Assembly (NCBI GenBank): GCA_004369045.1 | Contig: ML213505.1 | Location: 410,591 to 474,590, forward strand | DNA: 64,000 nt | Direction of reading: 5' to 3' | DNA from: Heliocybe sulcata | Lineage: Eukaryota; Basidiomycota; Agaricomycetes; Gloeophyllales; Gloeophyllaceae | Shown: in pieces, positions 29,207-61,004 of the stretch | Layout: every line of letters begins with the position of its first letter | Position numbering within the stretch: the stretch's first letter is position 1 | Notes under the pieces: model-generated | Database searches by the model: none | Told to the model about the DNA's origin: nothing | What the model saw: only the letters and a program-made list of their open reading frames with translations | Translations under genes and position numbers: made by a program

Positions 29207-29609
29207 AATGGATATCAATGACAGACTCCAGGCTTGCAATATCATATGTTTGTTGTCACGATCGCAACTTACTGTCGATGGATGTGCTGTTCTTGTTGTA
29301 TGTAGGACATTGTACAGCAGCTTGACTGGAGTTGAATAGTATTCGGCGCTCAGCGCTCAGCCATGGGTTCTGCGCTTGGGTTGCAATAATTGGGGATCCG
29401 GGGATAACGCGAATATTATTTTGTCAGGCAAGCACCAACCCGACGTCACCGGCGAGGACTTCTCGTAACATGATTGTATCAGGACGGCCACTAGTATCAC
29501 ATCATGATGCCACTTCATATTCATACAACTCTGCGATCTTCTATGTTAATTTGGTTCCACTTGGGGAGTGACTAAATATTCATCTATTCATTATCTCGCG
29601 CGAGAAGCC
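29207..29609. other. Edge of accessory island, no gene
   Basis: 3' flank of SCAMP. It contains 29274-29338, similar in the same orientation to 40822-40876 on the far side of the island, and 29583-29617, a fragment of the island gene (see findings). Confidence 0.4.
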
Positions 29610-29617
29610 AGACATAC
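29583..29617 (+). repeat. 35-bp fragment of the HAD-CK1 gene
   Basis: Matches about 32 of 35 positions with 37853-37887, the part of exon 1 that encodes NLFIISREKPD, in the plus orientation. It lies just outside the outer edge of the left arm, so it is a third, minimal footprint of the gene. Confidence 0.65.
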
Positions 29618-29717
29618 ATGTGCTCCGAAAGACCAACGGGTGAGTATTCATCGTAGGAGATACGGTCTAGCGCGGCGACCCATGAGGCATCAACGGATTT
29701 GGATGCGAGGGACGACC

Positions 29718-32700
29718 TCATAAAACATCCTGGCGATGTCGAACTGGTTGGACGAGGCCCATATCAAGCTTATACTCGTTCGGCAGGAGCGTGCCACGTT
29801 CTCCGGGCGACCACCAATCATACTCCCAGTCATACTCCCACCCATGGTCTTTCATTGTTCGTCGGAGAAGGTTCCTCAGATATGCATAGTCTGGCTGCGT
29901 GTCGAAGTCCAGCGACCGACAATGTTTGAAAAACGGGTCGAAGAAAGCCGGCGACTTGGTGAGCAGGTCTGCGAAAGGTTTACCTCGCTTCATCTCCCCT
30001 ATTCGCAGGAGTTTGGAGGGTATGTCCGGTGCGACGATGCCTTGCCAAGGAAGGCGGCCATGGCACAAGTAGAGTAGAAGGATGCCGATTGCCTCGACGT
30101 CATCTCGTCGACTGGGTTCTAAGAATGTATGGTAAGCGCAGCATCTCGAATGCACATCAAAATTATTCACCCAAGCCGAAATGAACGTTGTGGCTCGCAT
30201 AACGCGGTGTGCCGATGCCTCCCCTGCCCTCGCGAAAAGGCATGTGTTTCCCTGTCGTCGGATCAAGGTAAAGTTTACCAAGGCCCAGATCTAACAGATG
30301 GAGGCATTTGTACTCTTCCACTAAACCCATCGCAAAGTTCTCGGGCTTGATGTCACGAACAATTATTCCGCGAGCATGCACCTCTTCAATTATCGTGAGC
30401 TGTATCGCATATTAGTCTGGGTTCATCGAAGACGAGGAGGTTTCATGACTAACCATTTGCTCCCCGAGCATGAGAACTGTCCTTAAAGACAGCGCTCCTC
30501 TGCAAAACCGACGCAGTTCTTCGACGTTCGGTCCAAGCTTGTCCATCACAAGGACGTATGCGCCGTGCTCTGGACCTGACCAATGAATTCTTGGGATACC
30601 TGTCACTCCCTCGAGTTGTGCATATATGGCAGATTCGTACGGCAGACTCTCTCGCACATCCGGGTGTATGGGCTCGAATTTGACAGCCACCTCGGCTCCG
30701 GTATCCATTTGGACGCCATTCCACACATCCGCTGCACGACAGGTATATAAGCAAACGGAGAAGAACAGTCTCATGTAGGCGTACCGTAGGACCCGGAACC
30801 GATCAAACGAGTGAGCTGATAACATCCGTGAATCCTGAAAGGGGGGCAATCGGGTGTATAGGGTGGATGCAGGTTCGGTACTGGTGCAGGCGGTACGGAG
30901 TCTGGGTCCCGTAACACCATAATCAAGTCCCCCCAGGAGCTCAAAGAGTAGGTGGGTGAAACATTGGGTAGTGACAGGTTAGCGCTTCTGGTTCCCGGTG
31001 GCTTGATGAAGGCGGTGGGGTGTCCCGCCTGACCAGCAGGTTCCGCGAATCCTTGCAAATTGGATGTTGCTACTAGGATCTGATTGGCTGATACACTGGG
31101 CCGAGACCGTCTGACGAAGTCGAGTACCTCACTCCAAGTTAAGGATGACTCGTCCGCACATGCATCGCAAAACGCAAAGGAGATCCCAGGAATCTTTTCG
31201 ACAATCTCGCGAGACCTAAGGCCCGGTAAGGCGAAAATCATATAGCCACTATCAACGAGCAACGAGATGACGGACGGTACGTCTTCGTAGATCCTGGTTT
31301 CCTCAATGAGGTGCAGTGACGCCTGAATCTTGGACTCGGCCACAATTATGCCAAGATATCGCGCGACTCTCTGGATGACAAGAGCAGGCCCTTCAAGACC
31401 TTCGGCCCGCAGAAGAGCCTCGTATTCGACGTAGAGGTATAGCAGTTCCTCCGCTGTGAAATGGTGTGTGGAGGGAGGGAAAATGGCTACCAGTGCCTCT
31501 TGCAAGGGCCTATCGGTATCCTAGAGCGCTCTCAGAACCATACAACACTGCGAAGACAGAATAGATGCTTACAATAAGGGCATTACAGTCAAGCGCTATC
31601 ACCGTGACCTCTTTCGCAGGGATCGCGGGCACAGCAATGGCCTCCTCCAGGACGATCGCGTTTAGCGGATCATCCTCTTTAAAATCATCTGCTATCTCAT
31701 CTTCCTCCGAAACATTACTCGCAGGGTCTCCGTCGTGTGGGATGGGAATTGATAGCAAATGATGGACGGAGGGCCTCAGAGACTCGACGCCGGGGTCACA
31801 CACCCGATCTGGATTTTCCAGCATAGACGGATATCTCAGCACCCTTCCTGAAGCTATCAATGGAGGAAGAGCCTGCCCAGAAAGTCAGTCGCTGTTTGAT
31901 CCAACTTAGGCGAAACCACCGACCTCCCGCATAGTCTTGATATATGCCATGATGGAGCCGCATCCTTCCCATGTGTAATCAAGATATAACCTAAGATGTG
32001 TCACCGAGAGCACAAGACATAGGAACCTGGGGCTTACTGTCGGTACAAAGCTGTTTCTTTGAGTACTGACATGTCGAAATTGTCCGAAAGCTCACTGAAC
32101 GAGACAAGATCGAAGGAGAGGGGAACGTAGCGGCGCATCTCTAGGACCCCTGGTGCTTCCCGTGGCGATTCCCCACTCAATGTATCCCAGTCTGGTGCAG
32201 GTTCGTCGTCGCCCCCCGTTTCTCGGATACCAGGAATGGAGGGACCTGCTTCTGCAATGGCTGCCATGAGACGGTCGAGACTCGACTGCTCCAGTTGATA
32301 TGTTCCCATTTTGCCCAGCAACTCGTAAGTCTCCGAGTACGAGAAATCGCCGCGTATGCGAGGCGTGACAGAGAGATACAGCGGATGTCGAAATGGAAGC
32401 GGTGGCACAACCGTCAAAATCTCTGCTTGAGCTTCCGCTTTGGATTGATTAAGGGCAAAATATTGGTTACCGGGCAAGTCTGGCTTCTCGCGGGATATAA
32501 TGAATAGATTTGGGAATGCTTGAGCAGCCAACGGGTCCGACGCAGTCTCGTAGAGGTGAAGCGCTAAGAAGGGCGTTGTAACTAGCGAAGTGGCCACACG
32601 CTGACCATAGGAAGCCCATACTGGTAGACGAGGCAAGAGTTTTGCTGCGACAAAGCTGTGTAGCATTATGGTGGATGCGGCGGATTTGTGAACGGCGTGG

Positions 32701-32726
32701 CTGGTCCTTATTATACGAGAAGCCAT
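29718..32726 (-). CDS. HAD-like / casein-kinase-1-like fusion protein, copy 1
   Basis: About 890 aa, seven exons. Residues 1-~340 form an unknown domain (MASRIIRTSHAVHKSAAS..., FIISREKPDLPGNQYF, EMRRYVPLSFDLVS). A HAD-like domain follows (~340-500): strand VTVIALDCNALID, helix EELLYLYVEYEALL, YEDVPSVISLLVDSGYMIFALPG, SFAFCDACADE. A linker leads to a CK1-like kinase (~585-830): loop IGSGSYADVW, VAVKFE lysine, YESAIYAQL glutamate, VRDIKPENFAMG, DLGLGKLY for DFG, GTPRYASHNVHFG and EPSRRDDVEAIG...LPWQG. Catalytic K, E, D and D are kept, so activity is possible. The tail has WEYDWEYDW. All splice sites are canonical; I see no break. Compared with copy 2, the patches DDPLNAIVLEEA and the segment around the glycine loop differ. 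Function unknown. Confidence 0.85.
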
Positions 32727-32985
32727 GCCCGGTAGCGCCGAGAAGCTGAGTACTGGAGAGCGGCGTTCTCGGATGCTTCCACGCACCTCGACTGGCCTCG
32801 AGCATTATGCTACATGCGAAAACCAAACTTGCAGGGCACTATTGAGCTGCAGTACTAGTCGGGCATCAATATCACCTTGTTCCCTCTTAGCGAAGCGTCC
32901 AGAGAACCGCAAAAACAATACTACCATCATTCATGGTACGAATACCTGCTCCCACATCTCACGTTGCCAAGCTTGGCAAATCATT

Positions 32986-33110
32986 AGAGTGTATTCGCTA
33001 TGGGATGTCCTAAAACATGGAGTGTCTTTAAGCCTATTAGAGCCTAAATGCGTAGGATACCCCCGTTTCAAGCCACCCTCCTGCCGTATTTCCCGTGGTG
33101 AATACACTCT
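32986..33110. mobile_element. MITE, 125 bp, in left arm
   Basis: Ends are inverted: AGAGTGTATTCGCTATGGGA on one side and the complement of AGAGTGTATTCACCACGGGA on the other. No coding capacity. Shares the terminal 11 bp and an inner GCCGTATT with the 5364 element. The copy at 37253 is identical, so insertion predates the arm duplication. It lies ~260 bp upstream of the HAD-CK1 start codon. Confidence 0.85.
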
Positions 33111-33260
33111 GTTACATTCGGAAGGTATTGTCTGTATTATTCTAGCGTCGCCAGAAGTACCAACCACTGATCGCTTCTGATTTCATATCAGCGTTAGCGC
33201 CGGACATGAAATGCTGCTGGGCGCGACCCCTGGCCCAGTCTAGCGATGGATGAACAACCC

Positions 33261-34173
33261 TGCCAAACTACGGACCCCAGCAGTTCTTTATCGACGACTA
33301 ACAGTTCGGGCTCTCAACTCTCTGTAGTAGTGTGAGCAGCTTCAGAACACACCCTTTACGTTGTTGATACGGACGTGCAGCTACCATCCTACGCGTCACC
33401 ATCGACATGTTGATGGCTGTCCATTTATCCTAAGTACTACCATGGATCATGCGGTTTTCGCGCCTTATTGGATTAAGTTCCTTACGCCAGGACGGGAACG
33501 AAACAGTATCTGGTTTAGCGGCTCAGAGACTATCTGCCGCGTAAAGCACGGAGCAGACTTTGATGGAAACGCCGAATTGCCCGGTATACCGTGGAGTCGC
33601 CGTTCAGCGCAGTTAAGACAAGATGCCCTGAAACGTCCTGGTTCACCTCTTATTACCTTCGCCCTTTCTTCCATTTTCGTGACTTGACTGCATTAGACGA
33701 ACGAGGATACGCGACCTGAAAGCGATCCGAATCCCCCGATGTGCTGGGAAGTCGTCGCTCACCGCCGCTAGTGAGACTCATTCCCGCTTTTCCTTGTCGT
33801 CATCACTCACTTTCATTTTTGGCAGCTTGATTTCCTTCTACAAACCTTGCTATGTGCACTGGAAGCGATGCCAAATTTCTTGATGTTTTCTGAAGTCGGC
33901 GCTCGCCGTCCCTATACAATGGGCCCGGCACCTCTCTGTGTGCTTTCTTGTTGTCTGCAGCCGTTCTTCCATTTCACAAACTAATCGTTTTAGACAGACC
34001 GCAACACGGATGCTGACAGCAAGTCCGAGCCTCCCGAGATGTCCTAATGTCACCGCTCACAGTCTCTACTACAGCCCCTCCGGCTATTGTTCTCAACTGT
34101 CCTTCCATTCTTCTCGATCTGACCACCTCTGCCTCAGTTTTGACCGGACTTGGGAGATGCAACCACGACAGGG
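33261..34173. other. Island spacer, left part
   Basis: One ATG-started frame of 81 codons at 33442-33687 (MDHAVFAPYWIKFLTPGRER...) has no recognisable domain and no good splice extension. I do not call it a gene. The rest looks non-coding and ends in the promoter of the 34245 gene. Confidence 0.4.
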
Positions 34174-34908: not shown

Positions 34909-35076
34909 CTATGGGGTGCTGCCTTGGAGTATCGGCATATACCTGTGCTGAATAACCTGAATTTCGTGGATGAAGAATTGAATGCTATGTGGACCGGTTT
35001 CTCTCAACTAGGCTCATTGTAAAGTCTGCTAAAGTATATATGCCCTTTGTGTCTTGGTACTTCCTACTAAGGGGCG

Positions 35077-35365
35077 AGTTCGACATCACAACGTCAAGCT
35101 TCCCCATCGCCCCCACCGCTTTTGTGAACAACTGCTCGACATCCTCAGGGTTGGATACGTCCGCCTGTATCGCGACCGCCTTCGCACCCAATGACTCCCC
35201 TTCTTTGACGACCTCTTCAGCGGGTCCTGCGTTCTTCGCGTAGTTGATCACCACGGATGTGCCGAGCGCGGCCAACTCGAGCGCGATCTGTCTGCCCGTA
35301 CCACGGCTGCCCCCGGTGATGAGAGCCACTTTTCCTTGCAGATTTTTCGGCTTGAGTTGAGACAT
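35077..35365 (-). pseudogene. Truncated duplicate of the short-chain dehydrogenase
   Basis: Exon 1 of the gene at 231 is copied here from MSQLKPKNLQGKVALITG to MGKLDVVMSNS, about 83 of 97 residues identical. Similarity stops exactly near the end of exon 1 and is replaced by unrelated DNA (frame continues PLSRKYQDTKG...). The catalytic YxxxK half is absent, so it cannot be an active SDR. The TGGSRGTG cofactor motif is intact. Confidence 0.85.
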
Positions 35366-35610
35366 GATGAAAGATCAAAAGCAAGAACTGGAGGTGCACC
35401 GTGATATTTCCTGATGTACTTATGGCGTCGGAACCTTGGTCTGACGCAATGCAGCTGAGTCTGAGGCCTGCTCCGACAGCAACCACAGTCGCGGTGGTTC
35501 CAGACTGGGTTCAACGAACAGATTATTCAGCATGTTATGTCAGACGAAGGACATGGTGAGAAGAGTACTACTGATGCTGCATCGGCCCAGTACACACGGC
35601 CGACTTTTGT
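35077..35610 (-). repeat. Segmental duplication of window positions ~1-522
   Basis: Not only SDR exon 1 but also ~230 bp of upstream DNA is shared with the start of the window in reverse orientation, including CATAACATGCTGAATAA and GGGCCGATGCAGCATC. Divergence of ~12-15% suggests a much older event than the inverted repeat. The homology may extend left of position 1. Confidence 0.85.
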
Positions 35611-36380: not shown

Positions 36381-37102
36381 TATGGAAGTAAAGAGGCTTC
36401 AAATAATATGATAAGCTACATCACATGCATGATGTGACACAAATCGCAACTGTACTCATGCCAGCCCGGGCTATTCTGGTGTGTTTCAACTTAGTACTAT
36501 GGTTCCATATGTGCTGTATATAGCTGATCAGGTCCTGAGCCTTTTGAAGTGCAGTGGTGGATGTAGGCAGCCATTTACATGCTGGAGCTGGACGCACTTG
36601 TTGTGTAACCACTTATTTATATCTGTACGCAGCTAGATTCCATCATTTGGCATGGCTACTGCGCGACGGCTCGTAGTCTGTCTTCTTTAGGAACTGAGCC
36701 TTCTGAATTGGGATATGAGCACGTGGTTCGGGTGGCGTTAATGGCCTTGCACCGAAGACCGAAGGTTAGAGTGCATTCGACGCCCTATGAAGATTAATCT
36801 ATCATATGTTCCATGGCGGCTCGGACCCGCGGGCTGTGTTCAAGCTTGAGGATTGACTCAGTAAGAGTCGACGAGGCGCTGCTGGCTTATTAAGAGCGTA
36901 GTCGGTAGATACCCGATGCCCAAGCCCTGTAGTATATAAGGAGCGTCGCTTGTCGCTCAAATATCATCTAACTTTTACATCGTCAAACCAGACCATCCTG
37001 CTTAGTCAGATTTAAGAACTTAGAGTTATTGCGAAACGCTACTCGATTGTTCAAATATACTTAGGTATTGCGAAAGCTACCTACGTATATTGACTACGCG
37101 CT
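36381..37102. other. Island spacer, right part, with orphan TATA promoter
   Basis: No gene seen. At 36768 TTAGAGTGCATTCG resembles a MITE end. TATATAAGG at 36933-36941 is followed by a CT/CA-rich initiator region, as in a normal core promoter, but no start codon with a gene follows before the right arm begins at 37103. Confidence 0.45.
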
Positions 37103-37252
37103 GGGTTGTTCATCCATCGCTAGACTGGGCCAGGGGTCGCGCCCAGCAGCATTTCATGTCCGGCGCTAACGCTGATATGAAATCAGAAGCGATCAGTGGT
37201 TGGTACTTCTGGCGACGCTAGAATAATACAGACAATACCTTCCGAATGTAAC

Positions 37253-37377
37253 AGAGTGTATTCACCACGGGAAATACGGCAGGAGGGTGGCTTGAAACGG
37301 GGGTATCCTACGCATTTAGGCTCTAATAGGCTTAAAGACACTCCATGTTTTAGGACATCCCATAGCGAATACACTCT
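37253..37377. mobile_element. MITE, 125 bp, in right arm
   Basis: Base-for-base the reverse complement of the element at 32986-33110, including the imperfect terminal repeats. Confidence 0.85.
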
Positions 37378-37636
37378 AATGATTTGCCAAGCTTGGCAAC
37401 GTGAGATGTGGGAGCAGGTATTCGTACCATGAATGATGGTAGTATTGTTTTTGCGGTTCTCTGGACGCTTCGCTAAGAGGGAACAAGGTGATATTGATGC
37501 CCGACTAGTACTGCAGCTCAATAGTGCCCTGCAAGTTTGGTTTTCGCATGTAGCATAATGCTCGAGGCCAGTCGAGGTGCGTGGAAGCATCCGAGAACGC
37601 CGCTCTCCAGTACTCAGCTTCTCGGCGCTACCGGGC

Positions 37637-40600
37637 ATGGCTTCTCGTATAATAAGGACCAGCCACGCCGTTCACAAATCCGCCGCATCCACCATAATGC
37701 TACACAGCTTTGTCGCAGCAAAACTCTTGCCTCGTCTACCAGTATGGGCTTCCTATGGTCAGCGTGTGGCCACTTCGCTAGTTACAACGCCCTTCTTAGC
37801 GCTTCACCTCTACGAGACTGCGTCGGACCCGTTGGCTGCTCAAGCATTCCCAAATCTATTCATTATATCCCGCGAGAAGCCAGACTTGCCCGGTAACCAA
37901 TATTTTGCCCTTAATCAATCCAAAGCGGAAGCTCAAGCAGAGATTTTGACGGTTGTGCCACCGCTTCCATTTCGACATCCGCTGTATCTCTCTGTCACGC
38001 CTCGCATACGCGGCGATTTCTCGTACTCGGAGACTTACGAGTTGCTGGGCAAAATGGGAACATATCAACTGGAGCAGTCGAGTCTCGACCGTCTCATGGC
38101 AGCCATTGCAGAAGCAGGTCCCTCCATTCCTGGTATCCGAGAAACGGGGGGCGACGACGAACCTGCACCAGACTGGGATACATTGAGTGGGGAATCGCCA
38201 CGGGAAGCACCAGGGGTCCTAGAGATGCGCCGCTACGTTCCCCTCTCCTTCGATCTTGTCTCGTTCAGTGAGCTTTCGGACAATTTCGACATGTCAGTAC
38301 TCAAAGAAACAGCTTTGTACCGACAGTAAGCCCCAGGTTCCTATGTCTTGTGCTCTCGGTGACACATCTTAGGTTATATCTTGATTACACATGGGAAGGA
38401 TGCGGCTCCATCATGGCATATATCAAGACTATGCGGGAGGTCGGTGGTTTCGCCTAAGTTGGATCAAACAGCGACTGACTTTCTGGGCAGGCTCTTCCTC
38501 CATTGATAGCTTCAGGAAGGGTGCTGAGATATCCGTCTATGCTGGAAAATCAAGATCGGGTGTGTGACCCCGGCGTCGAGTCTCTGAGGCCCTCCGTCCA
38601 TCATTTGCTATCAATTCCCATCCCACACGACGGAGACCCTGCGAGTAATGTTTCGGAGGAAGATGAGATAGCAGATGATTTTAAAGAGGATGATCCAATG
38701 AGCGTGGTTGCCCTGGAAATTGCCATTGCTGTGCCCGCGATCCCTGCGAAAGAGGTCACGGTGATAGCGCTTGACTGTAATGCCCTTATTGTAAGCACCT
38801 ATTCTGTCCTCGCAGTGTTGTATGGTTCTGAGAGCGCTCTAGGATACCGATAGGCCCTTGCAAGAGGCACTGGTAGCCATTTTCCCTCCCTCCACACACC
38901 ATTTCACAGCGGAGGAACTGCTATACCTCTACGTCGAATATGAGGCTCTTCTGCGGGCCGAAGGTCTTGAAGGGCCTGCTCTTGTCATCCAGAGAGTCGC
39001 GCGATATCTTGGCATAACTGTGACTGAGTCCAAAATTCAGGCGTCACTGCACCTCATTGAGGAAACCAGGATCTACGAAGACGTACCATCCGTCATCTCG
39101 TCGCTCGTTGACAGTGGCTATATGATTTTCGCCTTACCGGGCCTCAGGTCTCGCGAGATTGTCGAAAAGATTCCTGGGATCTCCTTTGCGTTTTGCGATG
39201 CATGTGCGGACGAGTCATCCTTAACTTGGAGTGAGGTACTCGACTTCGTCAGATGGTCTCGGCCCAGTGTATCAGCCAATCAGATCCTAGTAGCAACATC
39301 CAATTTGCAAGGATTCGCGGAACCTGCTGGTCGGGCGGGACACCCCACCGCCTTCATCAAGCCACCGGGAACCAGAAGCGCTAACCTGTGTCTACCCAAC
39401 GTGTCACCTACCTACTCTTTGAGCTCGTGGGGCGACTTGATTACGGCGTTACAGGACCCAGACTCCGTACCGCCTGCACCAGTACCGAACCTGCGTCCAC
39501 CTTATACGCCCGATTCTCCACCTTTCAGGATTCATGGATGCTACCAGCTGACTTATTGGATCGGTTCCGGGTCCTACGGTACTGTCTATATTTGACTCTT
39601 CTTTCAGTTTGCTTACATGTCTCTCGTGCAGCGTTTGTATGGGGTGGCGTCCAAATGGATACCGGAGCCGAGGTGGCTGTCAAATTCGAGCCCATACATC
39701 CGGATGTGCGAGAGAGTCTGCCGTACGAATCTGCCATATATGCACAACTCGAAGGAGTGACAGGTATCCCAAGAATTCATTGGTCAGGTCCAGAGCACGG
39801 CGCATACGTCCTTGTGATGGACAAGCTTGGACCGAACGTCGAAGAACTGCGTCGGTTTTGCAGAGGAGCGCTGTCTTTAAGGACAGTTCTCATGCTCGGG
39901 GAGCAAATGGTTAGTCATGAAACCTCCTCGTCTTCGATGAACCCAGACTAATATGCGATACAGCTCACGATAATTGAAGAGGTGCATGCTCGCGGAATAA
40001 TTGTTCGTGACATCAAGCCCGAGAACTTTGCGATGGGTTTAGTGGAAGAGTACAAATGCCTCCATCTGTTAGATCTGGGCCTTGGTAAACTTTACCTTGA
40101 TCCGACGACAGGGAAACACATGCCTTTTCGCGAGGGCAGGGGAGGCATCGGCACACCGCGTTATGCGAGCCACAACGTTCATTTCGGCTTGGGTGAATAA
40201 TTTTGATGTGCATTCGAGATGCTGCGCTTACCATACATTCTTAGAACCCAGTCGACGAGATGACGTCGAGGCAATCGGCATCCTTCTACTCTACTTGTGC
40301 CATGGCCGCCTTCCTTGGCAAGGCATCGTCGTACCGGACATACCCTCCAAACTCCTGCGAATAGGGGAGATGAAGCGAGGTAAACCTTTCGCAGACCTGC
40401 TCACCAAGTCGCCGGCTTTCTTCGACCCGTTTTTCAAACATTGTCGGTCGCTGGACTTCGACACGCAGCCAGACTATGCATATCTGAGGAACCTTCTCCG
40501 ACGAACAATGAAAGACCATGGGTGGGAGTATGACTGGGAGTATGATTGGTGGTCGCCCGGAGAACGTGGCACGCTCCTGCCGAACGAGTATAAGCTTGAT

Positions 40601-40645
40601 ATGGGCCTCGTCCAACCAGTTCGACATCGCCAGGATGTTTTATGA
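37637..40645 (+). CDS. HAD-like / casein-kinase-1-like fusion protein, copy 2
   Basis: Same seven-exon gene as at 29718-32726, head-to-head with it. Exon 1 is identical in protein. Differences: DDPMSVVALEIA in place of DDPLNAIVLEEA before the HAD strand, TVTESK for IVAESK, RWSRPS for RRSRPS, and about 15% nucleotide change in 39385-39650, covering the linker, the glycine loop (IGSGSYAFVW) and the following intron. Kinase catalytic residues are the same and intact (VAVKFE, IVRDIKPEN, DLGLG). Both copies therefore look like genes, not relics. The protein lacks a signal peptide and TM segment. CK1-like kinases normally act alone on Ser/Thr; the HAD fusion could oppose or regulate that, which is speculation. 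Confidence 0.85.
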
Positions 40646-40821
40646 GGTCCTCTCTCCTAATCAAATACCGCTGATGGTTCATGTATCGCGGGGCTAGACC
40701 ATGTCTCCTACGACGAACCCTCACATAATATTAATCTTTCGGATCGCGTCTACAACCGGTACACATCCCTGTATATTACAAAGTGAACTCTGTATTCCTT
40801 GCAATTAAATCCCAGCTAGCA

Positions 40822-60452: not shown

Positions 60453-61004
60453 ATGCAAGCTATAGAGACCAACAGAGACCTCGAATTCCTTCGGCAGGCT
60501 CTACTTGAGGCGAAGAAATGTCAGCCTACCCCTACAGCCTTCTGCGTCGGTTGCGTTCTGGTTGTTCGATGGCCATCTCCTGAAGGGAACCCCTTTGTCT
60601 TGGCTCGAGGATTTTCGCGCGAAGTTCCTGGAAATACACATGCGGAAGCCAACGCGCTCGCGAAGGCCAGGGCATTATCGCAAGACCAGCTTTCTGCGAT
60701 GTTCAATGTCGACAAACCAGAGGAATGGGATGTCGAGTCCCTTCTCAAACATGCGGATGTATACACGACGATGGAACCATGTTCAATCAGGACGTCGGGC
60801 CTAGCGCCTTGCGCGGATGCGTTAATCTCGGCAGGTGTCAGGCGCTGCTTCATCGGCGTCGGCGAACCAGATGATTTCGTGAAATGCGAGGGTGCAGATA
60901 AGCTCAAGCAAGCGGGCGTTGAAGTAATGTGGTTGAAGGGTTTAGAGGAAGAGTGCTTGAGCGTAGCTAGGAGAGGACACGATGGATCGAGTTCGTATCA
61001 CTAG
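60453..61004 (+). CDS. DRAP deaminase, stand-alone Rib2 deaminase domain
   Basis: Single exon, 183 aa. Matches the C-terminal domain of fungal Rib2, which deaminates the diamino-ribitylamino-pyrimidinone phosphate intermediate of riboflavin synthesis. Signatures: TPTAFCVGCVLVV, ARGFSREVPGNTHAEANAL with zinc ligand H63 and catalytic E65, VYTTMEPCSIRTSGLAPC giving ligands C110 and C120, and FIGVGEPDDFVKCEGADKL...GLEEECLSVARRGHD. In yeast Rib2 this domain follows a tRNA pseudouridine synthase domain; here there is none, as an ATG begins only ~20 residues before the deaminase fold and SPT6 lies just upstream on the other strand. Confidence 0.87.
   Translation: MQAIETNRDLEFLRQALLEAKKCQPTPTAFCVGCVLVVRWPSPEGNPFVLARGFSREVPGNTHAEANALAKARALSQDQLSAMFNVDKPEEWDVESLLKHADVYTTMEPCSIRTSGLAPCADALISAGVRRCFIGVGEPDDFVKCEGADKLKQAGVEVMWLKGLEEECLSVARRGHDGSSSYH

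Follow-up and report, generated by a model that had tools for sequence, protein, structure and literature searches.

A gene of Heliocybe sulcata, located in the 64,000-nucleotide stretch of contig ML213505.1 analysed here (the window), probably encodes an active-looking Ser/Thr kinase of the casein kinase 1 (CK1) family, with an N-terminal extension that ends in a degenerate type II haloacid dehalogenase (HAD) domain. It has an inverted duplicate with which it appears to have been homogenised in patches, and the pseudo-HAD would steer the CK1 domain. To this reading as a whole we assign a probability of roughly 0.6.

Gene structure and N-terminal region

The gene (copy A) lies on the plus strand, begins with an ATG at 37637, ends with a stop codon at 40643-40645 and encodes 899 aa. 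A preliminary description of this DNA had already placed both ends there; its view of the gene as one continuous frame had to be given up, since the model needs six introns and seven exons. The introns measure 47, 51, 52, 53, 54 and 52 nt, all six are bounded by GT-AG, and the reading frame is continuous after splicing. The exon borders are also intact in copy B, as revealed by alignment and translation. The following features were assigned:

37637-38325, 38373-38439, 38491-38790, 38843-39578, 39632-39909, 39964-40192 and 40245-40645, plus strand: copy A gene, 7 exons (manual splice model)
37637-38736, plus strand: N-terminal region, residues 1-334, with introns 38326-38372 and 38440-38490; no family match
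37637-37813, plus strand: presequence-like segment, residues 1-59 (composition and hydrophobic moment)
38737-39457, plus strand: predicted pseudo-HAD (type II haloacid dehalogenase-like) domain, residues about 335-557, with intron 38791-38842 (hhalign; AF2 and Foldseek of the exon 4 part)
39458-39532, plus strand: Pro-rich linker from HAD to kinase, residues about 558-582 (from sequence)
39533-40552, plus strand: CK1 kinase domain, residues about 583-869 (phmmer against PDB, E 6e-75; Pfam Pkinase)
39579-39631, 39910-39963 and 40193-40244, plus strand: introns within the kinase domain stretch (splice model)

Exon 4 (38843-39578) is open throughout; it covers most of the HAD-like region, beginning just after strand 1, then the Pro-rich linker and the first part of the glycine loop of the kinase. 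As no Met occurs between residues 446 and 606, an ATG-started, kinase-only product in the same frame would begin past the glycine loop. The kinase domain (Pkinase) was the sole Pfam match of the whole protein.

About 334 residues precede the HAD-like domain, in agreement with the earlier figure of about 340 residues of no known family. For residues 1-323, Pfam and NCBIfam gave no match and PDB a single non-significant one (E 0.31). An AF2 model of residues 1-229, computed without an alignment, reached a pLDDT of 34 and is meaningless. Residues 1-59 contain no Asp or Glu, 6 Arg or Lys and an amphipathic stretch that ranks within the top 2% of all windows of the protein, a composition that suggests an organelle presequence.

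The HAD-like middle domain

Over the HAD region of about 220 aa, no match was obtained by Pfam hmmscan, a PDB sequence search or the NCBIfam HAD models, and NCBIfam returned for this region and the N-terminal part together one non-significant match (E 0.27), which is not to a HAD model. No relative turned up in viral contigs when the HAD region, the kinase or the N-terminal region served as query. The first lead was a weak tblastn match (E 1) to a plasmid-borne haloarchaeal HAD, the other of the two matches having an E of 4. Since a match at E 1 is a lead only, it was tested with a profile (A1) built from 12 plasmid-encoded type II haloacid dehalogenases, drawn from the best 40 of 93 matching records. 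One member, L010, is a manual in-frame cut (251-985) without a normal motif I and was included in A1, though not in A3 or A4.

Compared by hhalign with this profile, the only family tested in this way being the dehalogenases, the domain gave a probability of 89-90, an E of 2e-6 (2.2e-6) and a score of 46.2 over 215-216 columns. Scores in the controls stayed lower: no higher than 20.7 for forty column shuffles of the query, 16.5 for its reversal, no higher than 16.0 for ten other proteins of the window and no higher than 15.0 for four stretches from the N-terminal or kinase parts of the protein itself. Homology to the type II family profile was thus found against shuffled, reversed and natural controls alike. 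Leaving out four of the 12 members one at a time gave scores of 214-346, which, set against 46.2 and the low controls, marks the HAD-like domain as a true but distant relative.

The exon 4 part was modelled with AF2 at middling confidence (pLDDT 65, pTM 0.56), strand 1 lying outside the model. The alignment used (A6) held 17 bacterial HAD rows, from 80 of at least 569 confirmed loci, mostly of Rhodobacteraceae or kin to judge by their titles, and copy B. Because HAD rows guided AF2, the fold model is consistent with the profile result and not independent of it. Foldseek listed 482 matches at E <= 10, and all nine at E <= 0.001 were 2-haloacid dehalogenases or L-azetidine-2-carboxylate hydrolase. 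The best had an E of 2.8e-4 and a TM of 0.50, and the nine spanned TM values of 0.46-0.56 (query length) at an rmsd of 5.6-7.8 A. HAD phosphatases came lower: human HDHD4 ranked 19th (E 2e-3), and others had E values of 0.04-0.09.

Judged by this sequence homology, the middle domain belongs, in diverged form, to the type II (2-haloacid dehalogenase) HADs, and the HAD-like fold proposed beforehand is supported by both the hhalign value and the dehalogenases heading the Foldseek list of the HAD-guided model. With the type II haloacid dehalogenases (TIGR01428; PDB 3um9, 7qnm, 1jud) it shares profile homology over the whole domain and the order of elements; it differs from them in being fused to a kinase and in keeping, among the catalytic positions, only the nucleophile Asp.

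In HAD enzymes, catalysis involves the nucleophile Asp, a Thr, a Ser-Asn pair, a Lys and a second Asp. In the HAD profile these are invariant or nearly so, the Thr following the nucleophile by four residues. D347 aligns with the nucleophile and is the sole survivor among the five catalytic motif positions: the Thr of motif I falls on a gap or Leu, the Ser-Asn of motif II on Pro451-Gly452 or a gap, the Lys of motif III on Val or a gap, and the Asp of motif IV on Gly509. The type II catalytic set (Asp / Thr / Ser-Asn / Lys / Asp) is therefore incomplete. Motif I of HAD phosphatases reads DxDx(T/V); the domain has DCNAL, in which the second Asp is missing, and so lacks this motif as well. The losses are identical in copies A and B. 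Because only the nucleophile Asp is kept, in both copies, the domain is predicted to be inactive as a dehalogenase and as a phosphatase, that is, catalytically dead.

The CK1 kinase domain

The C-terminal part aligns nearly end to end with solved CK1-like kinases (phmmer E 6e-75, PDB). It retains Lys615, Glu630, Asp706 and Asp727, which we take to be the catalytic Lys, the alpha-C Glu and both catalytic Asp residues. The deviations, named on the same understanding of the motifs, are VRD for HRD, DLG for DFG and Ala598 at the third Gly of the glycine loop. A CK1-type domain is thus present together with the catalytic Lys, the HRD Asp and the DFG Asp. The preliminary description of a CK1 kinase with all catalytic residues was right in substance, the Lys, the alpha-C Glu and both Asp being there, while their neighbours (VRD, DLG, Ala) are non-canonical.

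The two copies differ in the glycine loop, where ADVWNG of copy B is nearer to CK1 than AFVWGG of copy A, in which Phe599 and Gly602 are changed. Given these two residues, kinase activity is less certain for copy A.

Like the CK1 family of the CK1 delta/epsilon and yeast Hrr25 type, the domain has the catalytic Lys/Asp/Asp and the SRRDD and PWQG motifs. Unlike it, the protein carries an N-terminal extension of about 580 residues with the pseudo-HAD, shows VRD, DLG and the Ala at the third glycine-loop Gly, and has a short C-terminal tail.

The inverted gene pair

The gene is part of an inverted repeat, whose arms are separated by a spacer of 3.8 kb and whose second gene copy the preliminary description had overlooked:

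37100-40724, plus strand: right arm, about 3.6 kb (blastn 97.5% over 3626 columns; repeat search)
29640-33263, minus strand: left arm, about 3.6 kb (blastn 97.5%; repeat search)
29718-32726, minus strand (32726..29718): copy B gene, intact, 899 aa, with the exon structure of copy A (tblastn; alignment and translation)

The match between the arms stops about 80 nt past the stop codon and about 540 nt ahead of the ATG, beyond which the flanks differ. Over 2700 coding nt the copies show no indel, and 45 codons differ, with 23 amino-acid changes and 22 silent ones (dN 0.014, dS 0.041; dN/dS about 0.35, a moderate point estimate). Neither 899-codon frame contains a stop or a frameshift, and at all six introns the splice borders are preserved in both copies.

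The glycine loop is split from the remainder of the kinase by intron 4, where 12 of 53 positions differ between the copies (two as 1-nt gaps); exons 4 and 5 together differ at 41 of 1014 (Fisher p 3.7e-6). Introns 1, 2, 5 and 6 show no differences between the copies (converted tracts) and intron 3 only 2 in 52, no more than the exons, so the argument from intron versus exon divergence is that of intron 4 alone.

The differences are clustered. Over 37103-40649, a range that excludes the diverged arm ends and holds 69 differences, none falls in 37103-38551 (1449 nt: upstream region, exons 1-2 and introns 1-2) and one in 39754-40649, while dense islands occupy 38697-38721 and 39390-39644. A difference-free gap as long as 1449 nt was reached in none of 20000 permutations (maximum 672). 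The islands include the HAD/linker region and the kinase glycine loop. This patchy identity points to gene conversion between the arms as its simplest account.

Other repeats and genes were recorded nearby. Just outside the left arm, an exon 1 remnant of 32 nt at 29582-29613 (plus strand) is 94% identical to 37854-37885 and may be a relic left by the duplication or by a third copy. A further inverted repeat, 15-520 / 35076-35594 (519 nt, 90% identical), has its second part in the arm spacer; by eye, we take it for a short-chain dehydrogenase gene and a fragment thereof, and its ORF 35217-35510 gave no Pfam match. Pfam assigned RRM repeats, an SPT8 propeller, Spt6 domains, Swi3 and F-box to ORFs of the neighbourhood, the RRM-repeat ORF being presumably of the poly(A)-binding-protein type; with this gene content the window is eukaryotic and resembles fungal DNA. 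A one-frame, deaminase-like ORF at 60453-61001 matched Inv-AAD and dCMP_cyt_deam_1 of Pfam.

Alternative explanations

The HAD-like domain had previously been regarded as a phosphatase-superfamily partner that could make signalling self-limiting. Such an active phosphatase opposing its own kinase could build on a genuine HAD homology with the motif I Asp kept, and some HAD phosphatases do occur among the weaker Foldseek matches. We nevertheless give it almost no credence, as the closest profile and fold matches are dehalogenases (the sole profile tested being a dehalogenase one) and four of the five catalytic positions are lost in both copies, namely the Thr of motif I, the Ser-Asn of motif II, the Lys of motif III and the Asp of motif IV. 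It is also very improbable that the splice model has mis-joined a HAD-like gene and a neighbouring CK1 gene. Exon 4 alone covers parts of both domains, the protein has no Met between residues 446 and 606, and the exon 4/5 splice sites are intact in both copies, though intron 4 diverges faster. The joining of HAD-like and CK1 domains in one gene, proposed from the start, is backed by the gene structure as well as by the profile and fold comparisons.

Other doubts concern the pair. Few-percent divergence between alleles is possible in a dikaryon, and an allele placed in inverted orientation by the assembly might look like a duplicate; this seems quite improbable to us, since the two arms cease to match about 80 nt past the stop and about 540 nt ahead of the ATG, their flanks being distinct, and since the differences are so strongly clustered. 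We consider it unlikely that the two genes are pseudogenes in decay, or silent duplicates, whose likeness is due to recent conversion. In its favour, the patchy identity points to conversion, the glycine-loop changes of copy A are odd, and a dN/dS of 0.35 is only a moderate point estimate. On the other hand, both 899-codon frames are free of stops and frameshifts, no coding indel has arisen and the borders of all six introns have been kept.

Proposed role and significance

A CK1-family kinase steered by a pseudo-HAD remains our preferred reading. A former type II haloacid dehalogenase domain has lost most of its catalytic motif and would have become a non-catalytic module for the binding of a ligand or partner, or for targeting. 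Such a module may position or regulate the fused CK1 domain, and the positively charged N-terminal segment may help to localise the kinase. Both copies would have evolved via duplication and then conversion between them, and it is these two partly homogenised copies that may argue for a conserved fusion. A more far-reaching version is improbable in our view: a fungus-specific kinase whose ex-dehalogenase senses a small molecule or partner and controls CK1 allosterically, in a conversion-coupled inverted pair with divergent islands diversifying specificity.

Among the matches listed from the open literature on such architectures and on fungal CK1 kinomes, the titles and opening lines of abstracts held no description of a HAD-CK1 fusion, most subscription papers being outside this scope. 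As far as such titles and opening lines go, the idea of a catalytically dead enzyme fold in phospho-signalling is shared with the pseudophosphatases STYX and MK-STYX, which have the fold of the protein tyrosine phosphatase family and not of HAD. To our knowledge, no CK1 fusion of STYX or MK-STYX is known.

A kinase-phosphatase fusion would be mechanistically striking; the gene described here is better read as a case in which an enzyme fold may have been recycled as a non-catalytic CK1 module. The inverted pair would offer a natural case of paralog conversion with islands that escape homogenisation. Conservation of the architecture in mushrooms would make it a lineage-specific class of CK1 with a testable regulatory domain.
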